This document shows, in pieces, positions 2,865 to 14,062 of a stretch of 24,786 nucleotides of DNA. The DNA lies in the IMG/VR virus record IMGVR_UViG_3300044800_000031, positions 1 through 24,786 of that record; one strand, 5' to 3'. The translations under genes were made by a program, and so were the position numbers. The notes under the pieces are model-generated. The model was given only the letters and a program-made list of their open reading frames with translations. It was not told the DNA's origin and did no database searches. Source of the stretch: a virus. Every line of letters starts with the position of its first letter. The first letter of the stretch is position 1.

Positions 2865-5101
2865 TAGCGGTTCGTCGTCGGGCTAGTGCTCGGGCGAGTG
2901 AGCGACGGGAGCATGCCGAACAGGGCGCCGCCTCCGAGATTGCCACCAGCAGCCACGAGTGCGGCGGCAGCGGCATTGAGGGCAGCGGCAGCGGCCTGTA
3001 ATTCCTTGCCGCCTTCGACCTTCTGTCCTTGCCCGCCCGGCAGCTTGCCGGCCAGACCCGAGGCGAATCCGCCTTTGAGCATCGACGGATCTTCGACCAG
3101 GCCGAGCATTCGCGCGATCGGGATGATCGGGCTGGCGTTCTCGTTCATGCTGCGAATGGCGCGCGCCTTCGTAACATCGGACACCGCACCCTTCGCAGCG
3201 ATGTCAGCGTCGGCCTGCGAGTTGATGTCGGACTGTCGCCCGTATTCGTTCTTGATGGCGAATCCGCTAGCTATGAGAGCGAGCACACCAGTGCCAATCA
3301 GCCCAGCCGGGCGTCCCTTGCCACCACCCGCCCCCATGACCGGGTTGGTGCCGGCCGCGATGCTCTTGACGGCTGAGGCCCACTTCTCGCCGATGGCGGC
3401 CGCGGCAATCTCCTTGACGATGTATCCACCGACGAGTATGCCGATCCCGCTGAACGGGTTGGCAATGAAGAACGTGGCGACACTGGCGACCGCATCGGCC
3501 AACTTGCCAATGCTCGGCGTGAGTTTCTCAAGCTTGGGGATCAGCTTTTCGACCACCGGCAACAGGGCCGACCCTAGCGTCTCCTCCAGCTTGTTCATCG
3601 CGACGTCGAGCTTGCCCTGGTCGGTCGTGCGCACGGCCGTCGCGGCTGCCCCCACCTCGCCCTCCTCGAACTGGGCGCCGAGCCCGCTCTTGCGCAACGC
3701 CTCGTGCAGTCCTGCTCTCCCGGCTGCCGCACCTGCCGCCCCGCCACCGGCCGCGGTAGAGGCATCCATGTACGCCTTGCGCAACGGCTCCGCCATCATC
3801 ATGCCGCGCTTGCCAAACACTTCGCCCCATGGGCGAATGTCGCCGCCCGTCGCACTGATGAAACTCGCCATCGTCTCGATCGGTCCTTCCTTCAGGCCGA
3901 CCGCTACCTTCTTGCCGTTGGGGCCGATTCCGTACTCGAATGGGTCGATTCCGTACTTGCTCAGAATGGCCTTGCTGTTCTTGGCCTTCTCGATGATCTC
4001 GGCCTTCATCGTCTTGAGCGCGTGCATGGCGACGCCAGGATCTCCGCCGGCCTCCGTGCCGGTGCTCAGCTGCATCATGGCGCCCACTTCGCCCAGGTTC
4101 TTGATGAGGTCGCCACCGCCGAAGCCGCGCGCTGCCCCCAGCATGGGGCCCACGAGCTGCGGCAGGAGCTTGGGGTCGATGGCGCCGGCTTTCGACTGAG
4201 CGAATAGCTGGTCGAGCACCTTGCGCGTCATGTCGGCCGGGTCCTTGATGCTCGGGTCCTTGCCGAGCGTCGACAGCACCATGCCGGCCATGCCGCCCAC
4301 GTCGCCCATCTCGGCTCCCTGTCCCTGGGCCAAGTCGGCCGCATGCGACATGAGTGCCACGCCCCCCTTGATGTCGCCGCTCTTGACCTGGACTGCGCGC
4401 AGGAACTCAAGCATCGGGCCCTTGCCCATGCCCGTGCGCGTGCCCTCGATCTCCGCCGAGCGCTGGATCATGCTGACGACCTGGCTGCGGCTCATGCCCC
4501 TGGTCGCGTCGGTGCCCATCGCCATGTTGGCCAGCACGGTCGCGTTGACCTCGGCCTTCATCTTCTTCTGGATGGCGTCTGCGGCAGCGATTCCGCCCAC
4601 GAGCCCCACGCCCAGCCCCACGGCCGAACCCACGGCGCCCAGCCCCGACACGACGCCACTGCCGGCCGCCCCGAAAATGGTCTTGCGGAACTGCTGTTGC
4701 CGGCGCATCTGCGCATGCGCCTCGGACTGCAGCTTGCGCTCGGCTACCCGCTCGGTGCGCAGCTGCTCCTTGATGCGGTAGTCCGCGCTCTTGGTGTGGA
4801 GCTGCTGCCAGTGCCGGTCCTCGGCGACTTTGGAGCGAGCCATCGCGCGGCGCTCGGCCTCGGCAATGCGTGCCGCGGACTTCTCAGCAGCGACGATGGC
4901 GTTGCGCTCGTGAGTGACGCCGCCGCGGGCTAACGTACCGGGGCCAGCCTTGCCGCCCGTCCCGCCCACGCTGCGGCCCGTTTGCGCTGCCGTTCGCTCG
5001 ATCGCCCTCGCGGTCGCGACGAACCTGGCCTCGATGCCGGCGAGCGCACGGAAGACGATTTCCTGGCCCGTGACGGCGAAGTCGTACTGAAGTAGCGCCA
5101 T
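2864..5101 (-). CDS. Tail tape measure protein
   Basis: 745 residues from ATG 5101, the longest gene in the window. Tape measure proteins set tail length and are released on infection. The N-terminus is helical and charged (about 60-140, rich in Ala, Arg, Glu and Lys, likely coiled coil). Hydrophobic glycine-rich stretches lie at about 142-180, 545-577 and 603-620, as expected for the membrane-inserting parts of the family. The body alternates Gly/Met-rich helices. The C-terminus ends in an Ala-rich helix and a Pro/Ser/Thr tail. It sits between the probable chaperone gene (4-base gap) and the gpN-like gene, the standard Mu-type order. An AAGGA site precedes the ATG by eight bases. Tail length scales with this gene, so a fairly short contractile tail is expected. 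Confidence 0.88.
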   Translation of the reverse strand: MALLQYDFAVTGQEIVFRALAGIEARFVATARAIERTAAQTGRSVGGTGGKAGPGTLARGGVTHERNAIVAAEKSAARIAEAERRAMARSKVAEDRHWQQLHTKSADYRIKEQLRTERVAERKLQSEAHAQMRRQQQFRKTIFGAAGSGVVSGLGAVGSAVGLGVGLVGGIAAADAIQKKMKAEVNATVLANMAMGTDATRGMSRSQVVSMIQRSAEIEGTRTGMGKGPMLEFLRAVQVKSGDIKGGVALMSHAADLAQGQGAEMGDVGGMAGMVLSTLGKDPSIKDPADMTRKVLDQLFAQSKAGAIDPKLLPQLVGPMLGAARGFGGGDLIKNLGEVGAMMQLSTGTEAGGDPGVAMHALKTMKAEIIEKAKNSKAILSKYGIDPFEYGIGPNGKKVAVGLKEGPIETMASFISATGGDIRPWGEVFGKRGMMMAEPLRKAYMDASTAAGGGAAGAAAGRAGLHEALRKSGLGAQFEEGEVGAAATAVRTTDQGKLDVAMNKLEETLGSALLPVVEKLIPKLEKLTPSIGKLADAVASVATFFIANPFSGIGILVGGYIVKEIAAAAIGEKWASAVKSIAAGTNPVMGAGGGKGRPAGLIGTGVLALIASGFAIKNEYGRQSDINSQADADIAAKGAVSDVTKARAIRSMNENASPIIPIARMLGLVEDPSMLKGGFASGLAGKLPGGQGQKVEGGKELQAAAAALNAAAAALVAAGGNLGGGALFGMLPSLTRPSTSPTTNR

Positions 5102-6818: not shown

Positions 6819-8399
6819 TCAGCCGGACGACGACTCGGCGATCTGGAACGTGACCTGATGCAGCAAGTCGATCGCGTACAGGTTGTAGGCCGTCTCGATT
6901 CGGCCCGCGTTGCTCGGGTCGATCTCGCAGTAGAGCGACGCCATCGTGTCGGCGATGTTCTTCAACAGGCCCGCGTTGTAGTCGCGCGTGATGCCGTCGC
7001 GCAGGAACGGCTGGAAGTTCCAAGGCGTCACGACGTTGGGCGCAAGCTTTTGGTTCGTGTTGACCTTGCCGGTCGGCAGCTTCTCGTCGGGTCGCAGCTT
7101 CTTGGCCCGGTAGCTCAGCCCGTAGTTGAGCAGTTGCGTGTCCGTGTGGAAGTCGCACACGCTCACGCGGTGGAACTCGACCACGCGGAAGTCGTCGAGC
7201 GTGCCGCCCGCCGCTTTGCTTCGGGTCGTGCACGCCATCACCACATACGAGCCCGAGTCGTTCGACGCGATCGCCGTGATGCCGTCGGTGATCGCGTCGT
7301 TCAAGTCGTTGCCGTCGGGCCAATCGCTGGTCGAGGCCGCCGCCTTGATGAGCCAGTTGCACGACTGGTCGCCGTTGTAGAGGTCGAAGTTGAACGCCGC
7401 GTCGATCTCGGTCTTGGCTTGCAGCGCGGCCGACCAGTTGGACGCGATCTCGGCCGGGTCGTGCTCGCTGTTCTTCTGCCACGCCATCGTCATGCGCTCG
7501 TAGTTCAGCGCGTTCGAGATGGTGGTGGCGGACGCGAGGATCTGCACGTTGGCAAACACGCCGACGCTTCGGAGCCCCGGGTTCGGCGCCGACTTGTTGA
7601 CGACGTGGGTCTTGAGCGGGGTCAAGTCGGCCGTCTGCGTCAGGCTCGACACGATGAAGTAGCGTCGCGTCGCATTGATAGCGGCGAGCGCGGCCGTGAA
7701 GCCTGCCACCTCGGTCACGGCGCCGTCTGTGCCCGCCACACCGGGGGCAAGCCCAAGGGCCGCCGCGCTGTACGCCACGGTCACGCCGATGCCTGCCGTC
7801 AGGGTGCCGGCCCGCATGCGCAACGCGCTGATGGTCGCGGTACCCTGCGACGCACCCAAACACTTGGCCGTGAGCGTGACGACGCCACCGGCGTTGACCG
7901 CCGCGAGCGGTAGCCACGTCTTCGCGTTGATGGCGGCCGCGATGTCGTCCCCGAGCGTGGTGGGCGTGTGCGTGATCTTGATCCCGCAGGACCAATACTC
8001 GCCGCAAACCCACCCCTCGACCGAGCCGGTACCCGTGGGCGTGCCGCCGCCCATCGTGACGGTAATGACGCCCGTGGCCGCCACGGCGCCCGCGCCACTC
8101 GACGGCAGGTAGGGTAGGGCGTAGTGCTTGGCGTGCGGATTGGCCATGATGCCGAGCCGCAGGGAGCGATGAAGGGGCGCGCCGGCCCCAGCGCCGAGCA
8201 CGGCCTCGCCCTCGTTCTTGATCGGGCCGTACAGCGTGGCGGCGGCCCAAGAGCCGCTCGCCGCGAGCTTGGGCATGCAGTGGACGATCGTGCGGATGCC
8301 CGCGCTCGCGCTCGACGGGCCCTGGCCGAACAGGATCTCGGCATAGCCGCCCGGTAGACGCCACGAGCTGGGGATGCCCGTGATTGGCTTGAGTGCCAT
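6819..8399 (-). CDS. Contractile tail sheath protein (Mu gpL-like)
   Basis: 526 residues from ATG 8399 with GGAG nine bases before it. The N-terminus (MALKPITGIPSSWRLPG ... EILFGQG) and the early hydrophobic core fit Mu-type sheath proteins. A beta-rich insert at about 100-230 with GTPTGTGSVEGWVCG, then DDIAAAINAKTWLPLAA and VTLTAKCLG, matches the outer domain of Mu gpL. The C-terminal part has RVSVCDFHTDTQLLNYGLSY followed by a long region ending LYAIDLLHQVTFQIAE, the usual end where sheath subunits mesh. It contracts to drive the tube through the envelope, making this a myovirus. A different minus-strand frame (6643-8364) is even longer but is Arg/His-rich and not coding. Confidence 0.9.
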   Translation of the reverse strand: MALKPITGIPSSWRLPGGYAEILFGQGPSSASAGIRTIVHCMPKLAASGSWAAATLYGPIKNEGEAVLGAGAGAPLHRSLRLGIMANPHAKHYALPYLPSSGAGAVAATGVITVTMGGGTPTGTGSVEGWVCGEYWSCGIKITHTPTTLGDDIAAAINAKTWLPLAAVNAGGVVTLTAKCLGASQGTATISALRMRAGTLTAGIGVTVAYSAAALGLAPGVAGTDGAVTEVAGFTAALAAINATRRYFIVSSLTQTADLTPLKTHVVNKSAPNPGLRSVGVFANVQILASATTISNALNYERMTMAWQKNSEHDPAEIASNWSAALQAKTEIDAAFNFDLYNGDQSCNWLIKAAASTSDWPDGNDLNDAITDGITAIASNDSGSYVVMACTTRSKAAGGTLDDFRVVEFHRVSVCDFHTDTQLLNYGLSYRAKKLRPDEKLPTGKVNTNQKLAPNVVTPWNFQPFLRDGITRDYNAGLLKNIADTMASLYCEIDPSNAGRIETAYNLYAIDLLHQVTFQIAESSSG

Positions 8400-8747: not shown

Positions 8748-9197
8748 TCAGAACCTCGCAGCGAGCGCGGCCATGCGGGGCACCATGCGCTCTAGGAAAT
8801 GGTCGGCACTTCGCGCCCAGGCGTCGTGCAGGAAGCTGTAGGGTCGGTTGCCCGGGTGATTGACCTTGTGCAGCGACACCCACGCGCCGATCTTCGCCCA
8901 GTAGAACGTGAGCATCGGGCGGCCCATGATGGTGTGGGGACGCGCGCCCTTGTCGATTGCGGCAGCGTAGGGCAGCCGGTTGAACAACTTGAGCGTGCCG
9001 CCGCGTGCCCCCATCGCGACCGTGAACTTGGTCTCGGCCTGCAGCTTGCCGGTGCGCGGGTGGAAGTGCGGAGTCGACCGCACGTGCTGCTGGGCGAACA
9101 TGCCGGCGCCCACGAGCTCGTGGCTCACCATGTCGCGGTGCGCCTGCTTGAATCGGTCGTGCGCCAGCTTCAGCCCGTGGATGTCGCAGGTTGGCAT
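8748..9197 (-). CDS. HK97 gp10-like head-tail / tail completion protein
   Basis: 149 residues from ATG 9197; the start overlaps the stop of the gene before it (TGATG). The segment PYAAAIDKGARPHTI (about 77-91), then FYWAKIGAWVSLHKVNHPGN and PYSFLHDAW, is the characteristic run of the HK97-gp10 / Mu gp37-type family, in which a Tyr-Ala-x-x-x-Asp/Glu-x-Gly motif is followed by a proline-glycine turn and a C-terminal helix. Members act at the neck during tail completion. The gene falls in the neck block upstream of the sheath, as in related phages. Confidence 0.72.
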   Translation of the reverse strand: MPTCDIHGLKLAHDRFKQAHRDMVSHELVGAGMFAQQHVRSTPHFHPRTGKLQAETKFTVAMGARGGTLKLFNRLPYAAAIDKGARPHTIMGRPMLTFYWAKIGAWVSLHKVNHPGNRPYSFLHDAWARSADHFLERMVPRMAALAARF

Positions 9198-9949
9198 CAG
9201 CCGAACTCCACCGGGAACTCGGTCCGCACGGTCGTCTCGTCCGGCAGCACGCCAGCCGGATCGCCTCCGAGCCCAATCGACATCGACACGCCCGTCAGGT
9301 CGGGATCCGCACCAGCGTCGCCGTACTCGTGCTCCTTCGTTTCGAGCTGCATGCTCAGCACGTAGACCACCTGGCCCTCACCCTCGGGACCCCACGTGGC
9401 CGCGCCCTGCTTGTAGCTCCTGAGGTACACGCTGGCGAAGTGACCTCGGCCGGGGAAGAACTGCAGCTCGCCCGCGCGGTAGCTGGCGTGGCCACGCTGC
9501 CGGATGACCAGCAGGACGGTGGCGCGCACGCCATTCATGATGGCGGCGAGCCGTCGGTAGTCCTCGGGCGACAACGGGCCCAGGATGTAGTCGATCCCCC
9601 AGGTCGTCGCCTCCTCGTCCTGGTCGAGCGTGTGCTCGGTGAACGTGCCTTCCTCGCGGTAGACTGCGAGGCAAGGGAAGTTGATTTTGGCCTCGCGCAG
9701 GACCGACTTGTCCGGAAGCGCGTACATCGAATCCTCGACCACCTGCTTGGTCGCCAGCGCGGTACCGGCCCGCGCGACGTTCCACGCGGCCGCCAGTTCC
9801 GCATTCAGTGCCGCGACGAACAGGGCGCGCAGGATGTCGGCGCCAGGATCCAGCGCGCTGAAAAGCTGCGCGTTCGTAACATCGGTCGCGACGACGGGGA
9901 GGGCGAGCTCGCCCACGCTTCTGTGCAGCGGCGGAAGCGCGTACGGCAT
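9197..9949 (-). CDS. Putative tail terminator-like protein
   Basis: 250 residues from ATG 9949 with AAGGAG seven bases upstream. The middle (about 88-160: FPCLAVYREEG, then TTWGIDYILGPLSPEDYRRL and VLLVIRQRGH) has alternating strands and a W/Y pattern like tail terminator or neck subunits that measure and cap the tube, but no diagnostic motif is certain. N-terminal helices precede it. Gene order (stopper-like, this gene, gp10-like, sheath) fits a terminator. It follows the tRNA gene and a 249-base gap, so it may have its own message end or promoter. Alternative: unknown structural neck protein. Confidence 0.6.
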   Translation of the reverse strand: MPYALPPLHRSVGELALPVVATDVTNAQLFSALDPGADILRALFVAALNAELAAAWNVARAGTALATKQVVEDSMYALPDKSVLREAKINFPCLAVYREEGTFTEHTLDQDEEATTWGIDYILGPLSPEDYRRLAAIMNGVRATVLLVIRQRGHASYRAGELQFFPGRGHFASVYLRSYKQGAATWGPEGEGQVVYVLSMQLETKEHEYGDAGADPDLTGVSMSIGLGGDPAGVLPDETTVRTEFPVEFG

Positions 9950-10198
9950 GCCGACTCCTTAGAATTGCGGGGAGCGCCGGGCTGCCTAAATCCCAGCGCG
10001 GGCCTTCCGACCGTTGGCAGGCGATCGACCCCGCACGGGCTCATTCCGCCATGCCCATTCCGCACTCGCGGTGTGCTAGGCGGCACTACGGTTCGCCACG
10101 CATCCGCGAGGCGACCTGTAGAAAAGCAGCCAGGGCCACCGGGAGGAGGTGGGGGCGACGATGGCCCCGGCCGCAGGATTGTGGCCATTCGGCCGTTG
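9950..10198. other. 249-base stretch without a convincing gene
   Basis: This interval lies between the tRNA 3' end and the 9949 start. Open frames exist on both strands but are Pro/Arg/Ser-rich and lack codon preference of real genes. It contains an imperfect inverted repeat (arms 9974-9981 and 9992-9999, one mismatch, ten-base loop) without a T-run, and an eight-base CATTCCGC direct repeat near 10043-10065. It could hold tRNA processing or message-end signals, but none can be shown. Confidence 0.6.
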
Positions 10199-10273
10199 TA
10201 GCGCGGGTCGGATTTGAACCGACGATCTCCTGGTTATGAGCCAGGCGAGGACTCCGGACTCCTCCACCACGCA
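10199..10273 (-). tRNA. tRNA-Met (CAT), initiator-like
   Basis: A full cloverleaf can be drawn on the minus strand. Anticodon stem CCTGG/CCAGG closes the loop CTCATAA, giving anticodon CAT. The T arm is GTCGG-TTCAAAT-CCGAC; the variable loop AGATC has five bases. The D stem is GAGG/CCTC with A11:T24, the reverse of most elongator tRNAs and typical of bacterial initiators. In the acceptor stem positions 2-7 pair (GCGTGG with CCGCGC, one G-T), but 1:72 is T-T, so it is unpaired as in initiators (E. coli has C-A). Two of three G:C pairs at 29-31/39-41 are present (29:41 is T:A). The base at 73 is A and CCA is not encoded (CAA follows). The D loop has one more base than E. coli. Elongator Met or lysidine-Ile tRNA remain alternatives. 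It sits on the same strand as its structural-gene neighbours. Confidence 0.85.
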
Positions 10274-10283
10274 TCAAGTCTTG

Positions 10284-10739
10284 TCAGTCCGCCGCCCGCT
10301 CCAGGACCAAGATGTAATGGCAGAAGCGATCGTGCTTCAGGTTGTTCAGGCGGAACCGCGCGCCCGTCGCCGGGTAGTCGGGCCCGCGCAGCACGAATCG
10401 AACCGTACTGTTCACTGCCGTAGGATTCGGGTGCAGCGTGGCGATCAGCGTGCCGCCACCTGGGAAGTCGGGCGTGATGGGCCCCACCTCAACCGTGCCG
10501 TCCTCGTAGCCGCCGAGCGCGATCTCCTTGTTGGAGAGCCACCTGACCTTGGGCGGCTGGCCGTTCGCTTCCGTGATGACGGTCGTGATGACCGTCTGGA
10601 TGCCCTCGCCGAACTCCGCGCCGGCCGAGCTGGTGACCTGCGCCTCAACCGTGTAGGGCCTGATGCCCATGCGGCCAGGAATCGCGCGGACGTGATTCGC
10701 CAGCCGCCTGAGCGGCATGCGCAGGCCGGTGCCGGGCAC
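10284..10739 (-). CDS. Putative neck protein (head-tail stopper-like)
   Basis: 151 residues from GTG 10739, immediately after the stop of the 51-residue gene; an ATG at 10718 gives 144 residues and is equally possible. The protein is beta-rich: IQTVITTVITEANG, VRWLSNKEIALGGYEDG, GTVEVGPITPDFPGGG, then RFVLRGPDYPATGARFRL and FCHYILVLERA. The 'GP..p..GA.f.l......hY.l.L' ending recalls head-closure or stopper proteins, yet I cannot name the family firmly. Its place between the adaptor-like gene and the terminator-like gene fits the neck. The tRNA gene begins about ten bases after its stop. Confidence 0.6.
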   Translation of the reverse strand: MPGTGLRMPLRRLANHVRAIPGRMGIRPYTVEAQVTSSAGAEFGEGIQTVITTVITEANGQPPKVRWLSNKEIALGGYEDGTVEVGPITPDFPGGGTLIATLHPNPTAVNSTVRFVLRGPDYPATGARFRLNNLKHDRFCHYILVLERAAD

Positions 10740-10895
10740 CTACTTGCCCTTGGGCTTCCGCACGTGATGCACCACTACCGTTCCGCCGGTGCGCGGGTGC
10801 GTCACGCGCGGGCTGCACCAGCACTCGCCGCCGTCTGTGTTGTGCGCGGGCTCGCCGTTCGGGTAGACGTGGACAATCTTCTTCATGATCGGCAT
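10740..10895 (-). CDS. Small protein, 51 residues, with ECWCSPR motif
   Basis: ATG 10895 follows the previous stop with no gap (TAGATG), and its own stop abuts the next GTG. The peptide begins MPIMKKIVHVYPNGEPAHN, then has GGECWCSPRVTHP near 22-34 and a basic C-terminus (HHVRKPKGK). Cys25 and Cys27 with nearby His residues could bind a metal, but two cysteines alone are weak evidence. Third-position G/C preference and the tight spacing support a real gene. Function unknown. Confidence 0.65.
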   Translation of the reverse strand: MPIMKKIVHVYPNGEPAHNTDGGECWCSPRVTHPRTGGTVVVHHVRKPKGK

Positions 10896-11027
10896 CTACT
10901 TGCTCCTGCTCCTCTTCACGCGCTCGGGCAGTTTCTTACCCTTGGGCGTCTTGCTCTCGAACTCGCGCGCCACCTTTGGATCCTTCGACCACAGGGCCCT
11001 GCGCTGTGCCTTGCTGACCATCGGCAT
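10896..11027 (-). CDS. Small basic phage protein, 43 residues
   Basis: ATG 11027 with TAGGAGG five bases upstream. The peptide starts MPMVSKAQRRALWSKDPKVA and ends GKKLPERVKRSRSK. This 'vSkaQrr.lws.dPk.A.e....tp....LPe.v' pattern is common among tiny proteins encoded in tailed-phage structural regions; their role is not known. Very basic, so nucleic-acid contact or a role in head filling is conceivable, but that is speculation. Confidence 0.75.
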   Translation of the reverse strand: MPMVSKAQRRALWSKDPKVAREFESKTPKGKKLPERVKRSRSK

Positions 11028-11032
11028 GGTGT

Positions 11033-11039
11033 CCTCCTA
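11033..11039 (-). promoter_or_regulatory. Ribosome site overlapping a stop codon
   Basis: TAGGAGG: the TAG ends the adaptor-like gene and AGGAGG serves the ATG at 11027, tying the two genes' translation together. Confidence 0.75.
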
Positions 11040-11651: not shown

Positions 11652-12065
11652 CTACGCGCTCTTGGCCGCCTGGAACTGGTACCCGATCCGGTACGTGTCG
11701 GCGATCAGCCCGTCCGCCACCTTGTTGATGACGCTCAGGCGAACGGCGGACAGCCCGTAGGCAGCTGGCGGAGCCTGTACGTAGACCTCGACCGCCGCGG
11801 CCGTTCCGGTCGTCACCACGATCGTCGCGGGGTTGGCAAAGTCGAGGATCTTGTACCAATGGGCGCCCGCATCATTCGAGCCCTGCCACAGCACCTCAAG
11901 CGTGAGGGTCGCCGTGTTGGCCACGAGCGAGGCCCACGCCGAAAGCGTGCCGTCCTTCACTAGCGCCATGTCCAACGTCGGGCCACCGGTGATCGTGGTC
12001 TTGGCAATGCCCGTCATCACCACTACCCCGGTGTCGGCGTAGAGGTTCTTCTTGAGCGTGCTCAC
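11652..12065 (-). CDS. Tandem paralogue 3 (possible capsid-associated protein)
   Basis: 137 residues from GTG 12065, which overlaps the stop of paralogue 2 (GTGA). It shares with paralogue 1 the runs DTG-VV-TGIAK, GPTL-M, a 'W/FQ-SND' turn and an identical GLIADTYRIGY near the C-terminus. Alternating hydrophobic residues predict a beta sandwich. No catalytic motif or signal peptide is seen. Being one of three adjacent copies directly after the coat gene suggests a virion surface or decoration role, but this is inference. Copies 1 and 3 are more alike than either is to copy 2. Confidence 0.78.
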   Translation of the reverse strand: MSTLKKNLYADTGVVVMTGIAKTTITGGPTLDMALVKDGTLSAWASLVANTATLTLEVLWQGSNDAGAHWYKILDFANPATIVVTTGTAAAVEVYVQAPPAAYGLSAVRLSVINKVADGLIADTYRIGYQFQAAKSA

Positions 12066-12487
12066 GGGGCACCGTCCTCTTGCGCGAAGTTGTAGCCGAT
12101 CGCGTACGTGTCGTTGACGGTGCCGGCGATGAACCGATTGCGCACACTGGCGCGCGCGTACAGGGCCGAGTAGACGCAGCCCGGGGCCCCGAGCACGACC
12201 GACACGGCGGCGTCAGCCGCCGCGGTGCCAGACGCCTCGACCACGGGCACGAAGTTGTCGCGCGTGACCACCTCGTACCAAGGACCGGCACCACCGACGT
12301 TCGAGATTTCCCAGAAGGACTCGATCGCGATGGTGTCGGTCTCGGCCTTGACGGTCACGAGCGCCGAGAGGGATCCGCGCTTCACCAGCGACATGTCGAG
12401 CGACGGCCCGCCGGTGATCGTGTCTTTCGCGATCGCCGTCAGGACCGTCGCTCCGGTCGCCGCGTAGTTCCAACGCTTGGTTGCCAT
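12062..12487 (-). CDS. Tandem paralogue 2 (possible capsid-associated protein)
   Basis: 141 residues from ATG 12487. It carries the family pattern: ATG-TVLTAIAKDTITGGPSLDM near 10-31, LVKRGSLSALV, a strand with FWEISN, and YARASVRNRFIAG...NDTYAIGY at the end. It is the most diverged of the three copies; the GLIADTYRIGY signature is replaced by GTVNDTYAIGY. Upstream, only a weak GGGGTG can be seen before the start. Like its neighbours it is beta-rich, without cysteine pairs arranged for metals. Function unknown; a decoration or fibre-base protein of the capsid is possible. Confidence 0.78.
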   Translation of the reverse strand: MATKRWNYAATGATVLTAIAKDTITGGPSLDMSLVKRGSLSALVTVKAETDTIAIESFWEISNVGGAGPWYEVVTRDNFVPVVEASGTAAADAAVSVVLGAPGCVYSALYARASVRNRFIAGTVNDTYAIGYNFAQEDGAP

Positions 12488-12499
12488 CGGAACACCCCG

Positions 12500-12919
12500 C
12501 TACGGCAGCAGGTCGTCCTTTTCGAAGCAGTAGCCGATGCGGTAGGTGTCCGCGATCAGCCCGTTGGCCACCAAGTTGATGACGGACGCGCGCGCGTACC
12601 GCCAGCCGTAGATCGACTCGGGCGCGGGCAGCACCTGCGTCACGATCGTGGTCGTGCCGGTGGCCCACACGACCTGCGCCGCGTTGTTCAGCGGCACGAG
12701 GTTGACGAAGGTGGCGCCATCGTTGCTCACCTGCCAGAACACCGCCAGCGTGATGGTGGCGGTATCGGCCACGACGGACGCGAGGCACGACAGCGTGGCC
12801 GTCTTGACCTCCGACATCAGCAGGGTGGGGCCCGGCGTGGTCGTGCCCTTGGCGATACCGGTCAGCACGACCGTGCCGGTGTCGAGGTAGTTGTAGACCA
12901 GTCGCTCGCTTTGACTCAT
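12500..12919 (-). CDS. Tandem paralogue 1 (possible capsid-associated protein)
   Basis: 139 residues from ATG 12919 with GGAG nine bases upstream. The order of conserved stretches is the same as in the two downstream copies: DTGTVVLTGIAKGTTTPGPTL near 13-33, EVKTATLSCLAS, TITLAVFWQVSNDG, then YARASVINLVANGLIADTYR and a short acidic tail (EKDDLLP). Predicted all-beta. It begins thirty bases after the stop of the major capsid gene, so it is likely made in large amounts with it. Possible roles are capsid decoration or a trimeric surface protein; no homologue is recognised. Confidence 0.78.
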   Translation of the reverse strand: MSQSERLVYNYLDTGTVVLTGIAKGTTTPGPTLLMSEVKTATLSCLASVVADTATITLAVFWQVSNDGATFVNLVPLNNAAQVVWATGTTTIVTQVLPAPESIYGWRYARASVINLVANGLIADTYRIGYCFEKDDLLP

Positions 12920-12949: not shown

Positions 12950-14062
12950 CTAGCTGTGGCGACCGTTGATGATGAACCGGTTGTCCAGCGTCGCGAGGCC
13001 CATGTACATGAGCCAGATTAGCAGCGCAGTTTCGCCGTAGTTGTCGTTCGAGCTGTTGGCGATGCGCGGCAGCTCCGCAATCCCCACGCCCACGGCGCCG
13101 GGGCCGAAGAACTGGTCGTGGAAGATCGGGACCGTCACGGTCGGGGACAGTAGGGTCGTGCTGGTGAACAGGTGCAGCCGGCCGAACGACTTCCAGTAGG
13201 AGCCCTGGAACGCCGGGTTGAACTCGGGGTGGAACTCGGCGAGCCGCTGGAAGCTCGCATCGCTCGACAGTTGCAGCTTGGTCGTCGGGTTGACGACGCC
13301 ACAGCGGAACCCATCGTCGAACGTCGGGACGTTCAGGATGTCGAACGTGGTCTCGATGGTCTGGAGCCACATGGCCGACGCGGGGTAGTCACCCGCCATC
13401 ACGGCGGTCGCGTCCGCAATCATGCCGCGCGGCCGCACGATCGTGCCGGCCAACTCGAACCGGTCGCGGAGGAAGCAATCCATCGTGCGCTTGTGATCCA
13501 TCTCCAGCGTCTTGGCCGCGATCTGCGCCGGCTCGTGGATGCTGAAGTGGCCGTCGAACCGCGCGACGCCGAGGGGCCGCACGCCAACGCCCGGGGCCGC
13601 ACCGAACGCCACGCCGTCGCTGTAGGGGCCGCCGTACCGACGCACGGTCACGGGCACCTGGTCGCTCAGGCTGTTGATCGGCACCTGCGAGATGACGGCC
13701 CCCTCGGTGATTTCGCGCACGAGCTCGGTGTGCACGGTCGTGGGGAAGTTCGGGCGGTTCAGGCGGATCGTGTGACCCGGCATCTTGCCCTGGCCAATCT
13801 CGGGCACCACCTGGATGGCGGCCGACATGATGGGATCGGCGAGCATCAGGCCGTCGGTCTTGACGTCGTACGGCTCGCCGTTGGTCCCGAACTGGCGGCC
13901 CGGGATCGGGAGGCCGACCGAGCTGCCACCCGAAAGCTTGGCATTGAGCGCGACCTGGAACATGCGCGCGTAGGGGAACTGGGGCAGGGGCGGCGTCAAC
14001 AGCTTGGCGCTGGTGATGTCGTAGTACTCCTGCGGGAGGGTCATTCTGCTGGTTTCAGCCAT
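12950..14062 (-). CDS. Major capsid protein
   Basis: 370 residues from ATG 14062. Size, position after the scaffold-like gene, and sequence character (many beta strands, few cysteines, no catalytic motif) fit a coat protein. Recognisable parts are an N-terminal helical arm (about 1-40), a strand region with VHTELVREITEGAVISQVPI near 110-130, a helix region FDGHFSIHEPAQIAAKTLEMDH near 168-190, and a C-terminal ANSSNDNYGETALLIWLMYMG helix. The last segment is similar in style to coat proteins of the HK97-fold types seen in P22- or N4-like phages; the precise subfamily is not certain. It would make the head with the scaffold at 14115-14813. AAGGA lies close to the ATG, giving short spacing. Confidence 0.75.
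   Translation of the reverse strand: MAETSRMTLPQEYYDITSAKLLTPPLPQFPYARMFQVALNAKLSGGSSVGLPIPGRQFGTNGEPYDVKTDGLMLADPIMSAAIQVVPEIGQGKMPGHTIRLNRPNFPTTVHTELVREITEGAVISQVPINSLSDQVPVTVRRYGGPYSDGVAFGAAPGVGVRPLGVARFDGHFSIHEPAQIAAKTLEMDHKRTMDCFLRDRFELAGTIVRPRGMIADATAVMAGDYPASAMWLQTIETTFDILNVPTFDDGFRCGVVNPTTKLQLSSDASFQRLAEFHPEFNPAFQGSYWKSFGRLHLFTSTTLLSPTVTVPIFHDQFFGPGAVGVGIAELPRIANSSNDNYGETALLIWLMYMGLATLDNRFIINGRHS

Follow-up and report, generated by a model that had tools for sequence, protein, structure and literature searches.

Initiator tRNAs coded by phages have been described before. Bacteriophage T5 codes a tRNA-fMet, known since 1975 (Chen et al. 1975, as cited in PMC4810235), and the Caulobacter phage phiCbK (JX163858.1) carries a tRNA-Met(CAT) gene. 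The determinants of formylation are a mismatch at 1:72 together with G2:C71, C3:G70, and A11:U24, while three G:C pairs in the anticodon stem (29-31:39-41), conserved in all domains of life, favour entry into the P-site in E. coli (PMC7949028).

We analyzed a DNA stretch of 24,786 nucleotides (IMG/VR record IMGVR_UViG_3300044800_000031; hereafter the window) and found that its single tRNA gene is a variant of these phage tRNAs. It is probably an initiator-type tRNA(Met) gene that was recently gained as a small cassette and that would supply extra initiator to the late-infection cell. The record is a virus fragment in which the genes for the large terminase, portal, and tail sheath all lie on the minus strand, and the tail sheath points to a contractile-tailed phage. 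A nucleotide search against named phages gave no match to the window, and the nearest annotated genome by protein was MW202476.1. The closest relative, the viral locus L002, shares the gene order of the window, and the products of the genes that flank the tRNA are 77-85% identical between the two. The neighboring genes are as follows.

12950..14062, minus strand: presumed major capsid protein, judged from position and conservation; syntenic in many related loci, with no match to a PHROGs or Pfam family
10284..10739, minus strand: upstream ORF of 151 aa, the last before the tRNA; 84-85% identical to L002 2412-2864
9197..9949, minus strand: downstream ORF of 250 aa, conserved in relatives; 77% to L002, about 35-38% to MW202476.1
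8748..9197, minus strand: tail-completion/neck1-like protein, weak match (phrog_5, E 9.5e-4)
6819..8399, minus strand: tail sheath (phrog_165, E 1.5e-40)

The preliminary description had placed the tRNA between neck genes, a loose wording, since neither the 151-aa nor the 250-aa ORF matched PHROGs or Pfam and it is the next gene down that gives the weak neck1 match. A profile scan for more relatives of the 250-aa gene again returned L002 only. Further upstream, the presumed capsid gene is followed by three paralogous ORFs in tandem, each of about 140 aa (11652-12065, 12062-12487, and 12500-12919, minus strand), of which L002 has two; they are a possible expanded capsid decoration protein.

ARAGORN detected tRNA-Met(cat) at 10273-10199 of the minus strand, the strand that also carries the structural genes, which supports the explanation given above, and no second tRNA was found in the 24.8-kb record. 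RF00005 of Rfam matched the same positions with 53 bits (gathering score 29, E 5.9e-9).

10199..10273, minus strand: initiator-type tRNA(CAU), 75 nt (ARAGORN, Rfam, initiator versus elongator covariance models, fold)

Its minus-strand sequence is UGCGUGG UG GAGG AGUCCGGAGU CCUC G CCUGG CUCAUAA CCAGG AGAUC GUCGG UUCAAAU CCGAC CCGCGCU A. Folded alone, it forms a cloverleaf in which positions 1 and 72 are unpaired and the anticodon CAU lies within a CUCAUAA loop. The features that the preliminary description had read from the letters (CAT anticodon, A11:T24, T1-T72 mismatch, and T:A at 29:41 beside two G:C pairs) are all present; in RNA terms the tRNA has U1-U72, A11:U24, G13:C22/U21/A46, and U:A, G:C, and G:C at 29-31. 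The D arm (G13:C22 and U21), the missing CCA (A73 is followed by CAA), and a terminator-like hairpin just downstream had been overlooked. U21 is atypical, as is the pair that it could form with A14, and both count against the explanation that we prefer.

We built covariance models of initiator (n=45) and elongator-CAU tRNAs (n=25) from bacterial and viral CAU tRNAs gathered by pattern scans. The window tRNA scored 82.0 bits with the initiator model versus 50.7 bits with the elongator-CAU model, although the initiator training set was chosen by an acceptor pattern that the window tRNA also satisfies, so that an independent check is useful: the best match in E. coli, with 82% identity, was the lone tRNA-Met gene flanked by argG and rimP, which is the initiator gene metY. 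In the controls, the elongator model was favored by 16-39 bits for true elongators, and the initiator model by about 34 bits for true initiators. The likeness of the T arm and the anticodon flank to E. coli tRNA-fMet, as noticed at first reading, was borne out by the CUCAUAACC and AUCGUCGGUUCAAAUCCG stretches shared with metY. All of the formylation determinants of PMC7949028 are present, with U1-U72 forming no Watson-Crick pair, and the top BLAST matches were phage tRNA-Met genes, one of them annotated as tRNA-fMet in CcrSC. An elongator Met or a lysidine-modified Ile2 tRNA would agree with the CAU anticodon and with the absence of one of the three anticodon-stem G:C pairs, but there is hardly any probability left for such an identity: the initiator model is preferred by 31 bits, and the C11:G24 and G1 found in 25/25 elongators, where G1 pairs with 72, are replaced in the window tRNA by A11:U24 and the U1-U72 mismatch. 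The covariance models support the initiator identity that had been proposed.

The T-T combination at 1:72, which had been called unusual, is not: the same acceptor end was found in at least 118 bacterial-genome and at least 119 viral stretches, and the bacterial carriers of U1-U72 initiators include Stenotrophomonas, Legionella, Pedobacter, and Phycisphaerae. We therefore rejected it as an odd feature. The broken pair at 29:41, mentioned only in passing in the preliminary description, is real and proved to be more informative. Among the matches listed, three G:C pairs were present in 66/73 unique bacterial U1-U72 initiators versus 28/96 viral ones. An alternative parse of the matches listed gave 70/77 versus 28/96 (Fisher p ~2e-17), and by position the bacterial and viral sets differed at 29:41 (p 5e-11) and at 31:39 (p 2e-8), whereas 30:40 was kept in both (p 0.07), all of these p-values ignoring the shared descent of the sequences. 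The exact U:A/G:C/G:C stem of the window tRNA occurred in 10/96 viral and 0/73 bacterial U1-U72 initiators among the matches listed. No initiator with this stem turned up when 299 Pseudomonadota genomes were searched directly; as no more than 16/40 genomes matched a control pattern for initiators of this kind at large, the effective number of genomes is nearer 120. In viral C1-A72 initiators, the full set of three G:C pairs was found in 29/65, and the commonest departure was A:U at 29:41; this pair is also found in bacteria, so part of that departure is host background. U29:A41 breaks the set that favours P-site entry and leaves two of its three G:C pairs, which is a point against the explanation that we prefer. 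Because 7/73 unique bacterial U1-U72 initiators also lack the three G:C pairs, the set is not strictly defining, and we filed the window tRNA as an initiator-type variant.

Its value could also lie in resistance, as a back-up initiator that is poorly recognized by a host tRNA-fMet nuclease of the VapC type, or by some other host check, because its anticodon stem and D arm differ from those of the host. Several toxins of the VapC type cleave tRNA-fMet within its anticodon stem-loop (PMC4105405, PMC8522696), phage tRNAs have been proposed to evade such nucleases (PMC10264068), and viral initiators as a group differ at 29:41 and 31:39 from the anticodon stem of the host. We nevertheless regard resistance as an unlikely explanation, since the VapC cut site A38-C39 (PMC4105405), the G31:C39 pair, and the entire anticodon loop are unchanged in the window tRNA, and phages facing VapC-LT2 generally avoid encoding tRNA-fMet (PMC10264068). 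The same pattern would moreover arise if constraint were simply relaxed on a redundant copy, which is the null explanation for the missing third G:C pair. Direct evasion of VapC through an altered cut site is unsupported for the window tRNA, in which A38-C39 is intact, although the group trend at 31:39 fits nuclease evasion.

The D arm sets the window tRNA apart from ordinary initiators, which have C13:G22, A21, and mostly G46, whereas the window tRNA has G13:C22, U21, and A46. Positions 13:22 and 46 covary over 164 initiators, of which 146 combine C:G with G46, while 6/6 G:C cases outside the window have both A46 and U21. The agreement of the window tRNA with this covariation favors a maintained tertiary fold over decay. 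A degenerate tRNA, as U21 might suggest, was rejected as the main reading, given these six cases and the company of U21 and A46 in a wider viral set. In this set, a complete scan of IMG/VR yielded 92 viral stretches with the D-arm type GAGG...GUCCUC, and 94 tRNAs were parsed (these stretches, phiCbK, and the window). U21 was present in 94/94 and A46 in all that have a 5-nt variable loop; 1:72 was mismatched in most, and three G:C pairs were present in 4. The D-arm type was found in 0/398 Pseudomonadota genomes, the genome controls being mainly of this phylum, and in none of the collected bacterial initiators. Judging from these sequences, G13:C22/U21/A46 initiators form a virus-associated sub-type (named here), into which the window tRNA fits and which also includes the tRNA-Met genes of phiCbK and phi92. 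A literature search found no description of it, which leaves the absence of one unproven.

Comparison with L002 showed that the tRNA lies in an insertion.

10194..10274, minus strand: insertion of 81 bp (A + tRNA + CAACG), with boundaries that may shift by 1 nt; L002 has the empty site
10183..10194, minus strand: small palindrome GGCCGAATGGCC on the 3' border of the insertion, unchanged in L002

The empty site of L002 reads ...CAGACTTG|GCCGAATGGCC..., and TGACCAGACTTG-GCCGAATGGCC of L002 aligns with TGACAAGACTTG-(A, tRNA, CAACG)-GCCGAATGGCC of the window, a difference of 81 bp. In eight more distantly related loci that keep both flanking genes (L004, L006, L008, L009, L019, L020, L024, and L035), ARAGORN and the initiator model found no tRNA near the homologous site, and neither the initiator model nor the annotation places one there in MW202476.1, which also keeps both genes. 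The simplest reading of these alignments is a clean and recent 81-bp gain in the window lineage. The placement stressed in the preliminary description, a sole tRNA inside the structural operon, is real and would reflect a recent insertion. The insertion is carried by one contig only, a point against the preferred explanation; a second contig of 100% identity (L003/L005) stops short of the tRNA, at about 11224. No gene is interrupted, because the insertion follows the stop codon of the 151-aa gene, in the head/neck region, and precedes the terminator-like hairpin. Its source may be another phage, given that phage tRNAs are the nearest sequences (87% in the viral record L440, 86% in phiCbK).

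Temperate phages often integrate at tRNA genes, and the insertion holds little besides the tRNA, as would be expected of an integration (att) site or of a decaying passenger copied from the host tRNA-fMet. However, the tRNA is full-length, with an intact 5' half and covarying tertiary positions, the best bacterial initiator in our sample was about 83% identical while phage tRNAs were closer (87%), and no integrase was found among the proteins scanned, which represent part of the ORFs. The chance that it is such a site or passenger is therefore very slim. At another gene border, 10740-11036 (minus strand), two small ORFs of about 43 and 51 aa separate the 202-aa and 151-aa genes, which abut in L002; this is possibly another recent insertion.

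The hairpin downstream of the tRNA is shared with L002.

10126..10174, minus strand: terminator-like hairpin of 16 bp with a 17-nt loop, then UUUU (10125-10122); conserved in L002

In its L002 counterpart at 2893-2941 (plus strand), 16/16 pairs are kept, 5 of them by two-sided changes, and the U-run is TTTT or TTTA across the pair of loci. The G+C-rich stem, the U-run, and the compensatory changes are those of an intrinsic terminator, with a loop of 17 nt that is long, and the element reads as a predicted terminator of the head-side transcript. A promoter/terminator consensus scan, which permits loops of 3-8 only, passed nothing, and this counts against the preferred explanation. The same hairpin was found in the window and L002 and not in more distant relatives. 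With the conserved hairpin downstream, the tRNA would belong to the 3' tail of the transcript of the head operon, the least harmful place. The loop holds an invariant CCCCACCUCCUCC against the covarying stem, and CACCUCCU is similar to the anti-Shine-Dalgarno tail of 16S rRNA; the hairpin may therefore have a role besides termination. From the hairpin to the 250-aa gene (9950-10121, minus strand), the window has about 150 bp more non-coding DNA than L002, which may hold a promoter.

A tRNA in sense orientation that follows a stop codon and precedes a conserved terminator-like hairpin would also suit an RNA-processing mark, with a fold that mainly serves to cut and trim the end of the head-operon mRNA and a secondary use in translation. 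This is highly improbable, because the initiator-specific positions, needless for such a mark, are kept, and the hairpin exists without the tRNA in L002.

Under the preferred explanation, an initiator added to the late pool, transcription of the late head operon would end with the tRNA as the final RNA segment, its 5' end would be freed by RNase P and its 3' end by trimming, and a host enzyme would add the CCA, which is required because the gene does not encode it. The tRNA would then be charged with Met and formylated, and would enlarge the late initiator pool. That RNase P releases it and that it is charged, formylated, and used are assumed here from established tRNA biology, and a putative supplementation of the initiator capacity for late genes, as suggested in the preliminary description, is plausible.

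The virus-associated sub-type to which the window tRNA belongs departs from a rule obeyed by most bacterial initiators. Should phages routinely carry initiators that lack the full G:C set, the rule would either be less strict in infected cells or be profitable for phages to break, and in either case these tRNAs are natural, ready-made variants for probing the three-G:C rule and the evasion of tRNA nucleases. The empty site illustrates how a single tRNA enters a compact operon of virion genes with no gene disrupted. A wider proposal, speculative and unlikely, is that phage initiators are a virus-specific class that has kept the formylation end, shed the three-G:C rule, and remodelled the D arm under selection for differing treatment by host tRNA-fMet nucleases or initiation checks, with the window tRNA as a recently mobilised member.

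Among known systems, E. coli metY (argG-metY-rimP; 82%) shares with the window tRNA the CUCAUAA loop, A11:U24, a mismatched 1:72, A46, and a near-identical T arm, but has C1-A72, C13:G22, A21, three G:C pairs at 29-31, and an encoded CCA. The tRNA of L440 (IMGVR_UViG_3300022555_000101), the closest sequence found (87%), has the same D arm and anticodon stem, but has C1-U72, encodes its CCA, and adjoins a Ro/TROVE-like gene and not virion genes; in that record, at 429-2351, the sub-type tRNA immediately precedes a 585-aa ORF that looks Ro/TROVE-like on reading its sequence. The tRNA-fMet of T5 is likewise a phage-coded formylmethionine tRNA, a likeness of kind, and is one of more than 14 T5 tRNAs, whereas the window has a single tRNA. 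The tRNA-Met(CAT) of phiCbK and its relatives is 85-88% identical and shares CAU, G13:C22/U21/A46, U29:A41, G30:C40, and G31:C39, but has C1-U72 in place of U1-U72, encodes the CCA that the window tRNA lacks, and lies about 370 bp from another tRNA-Met gene in a 205-kb genome, not in an operon of virion genes like that of the window.
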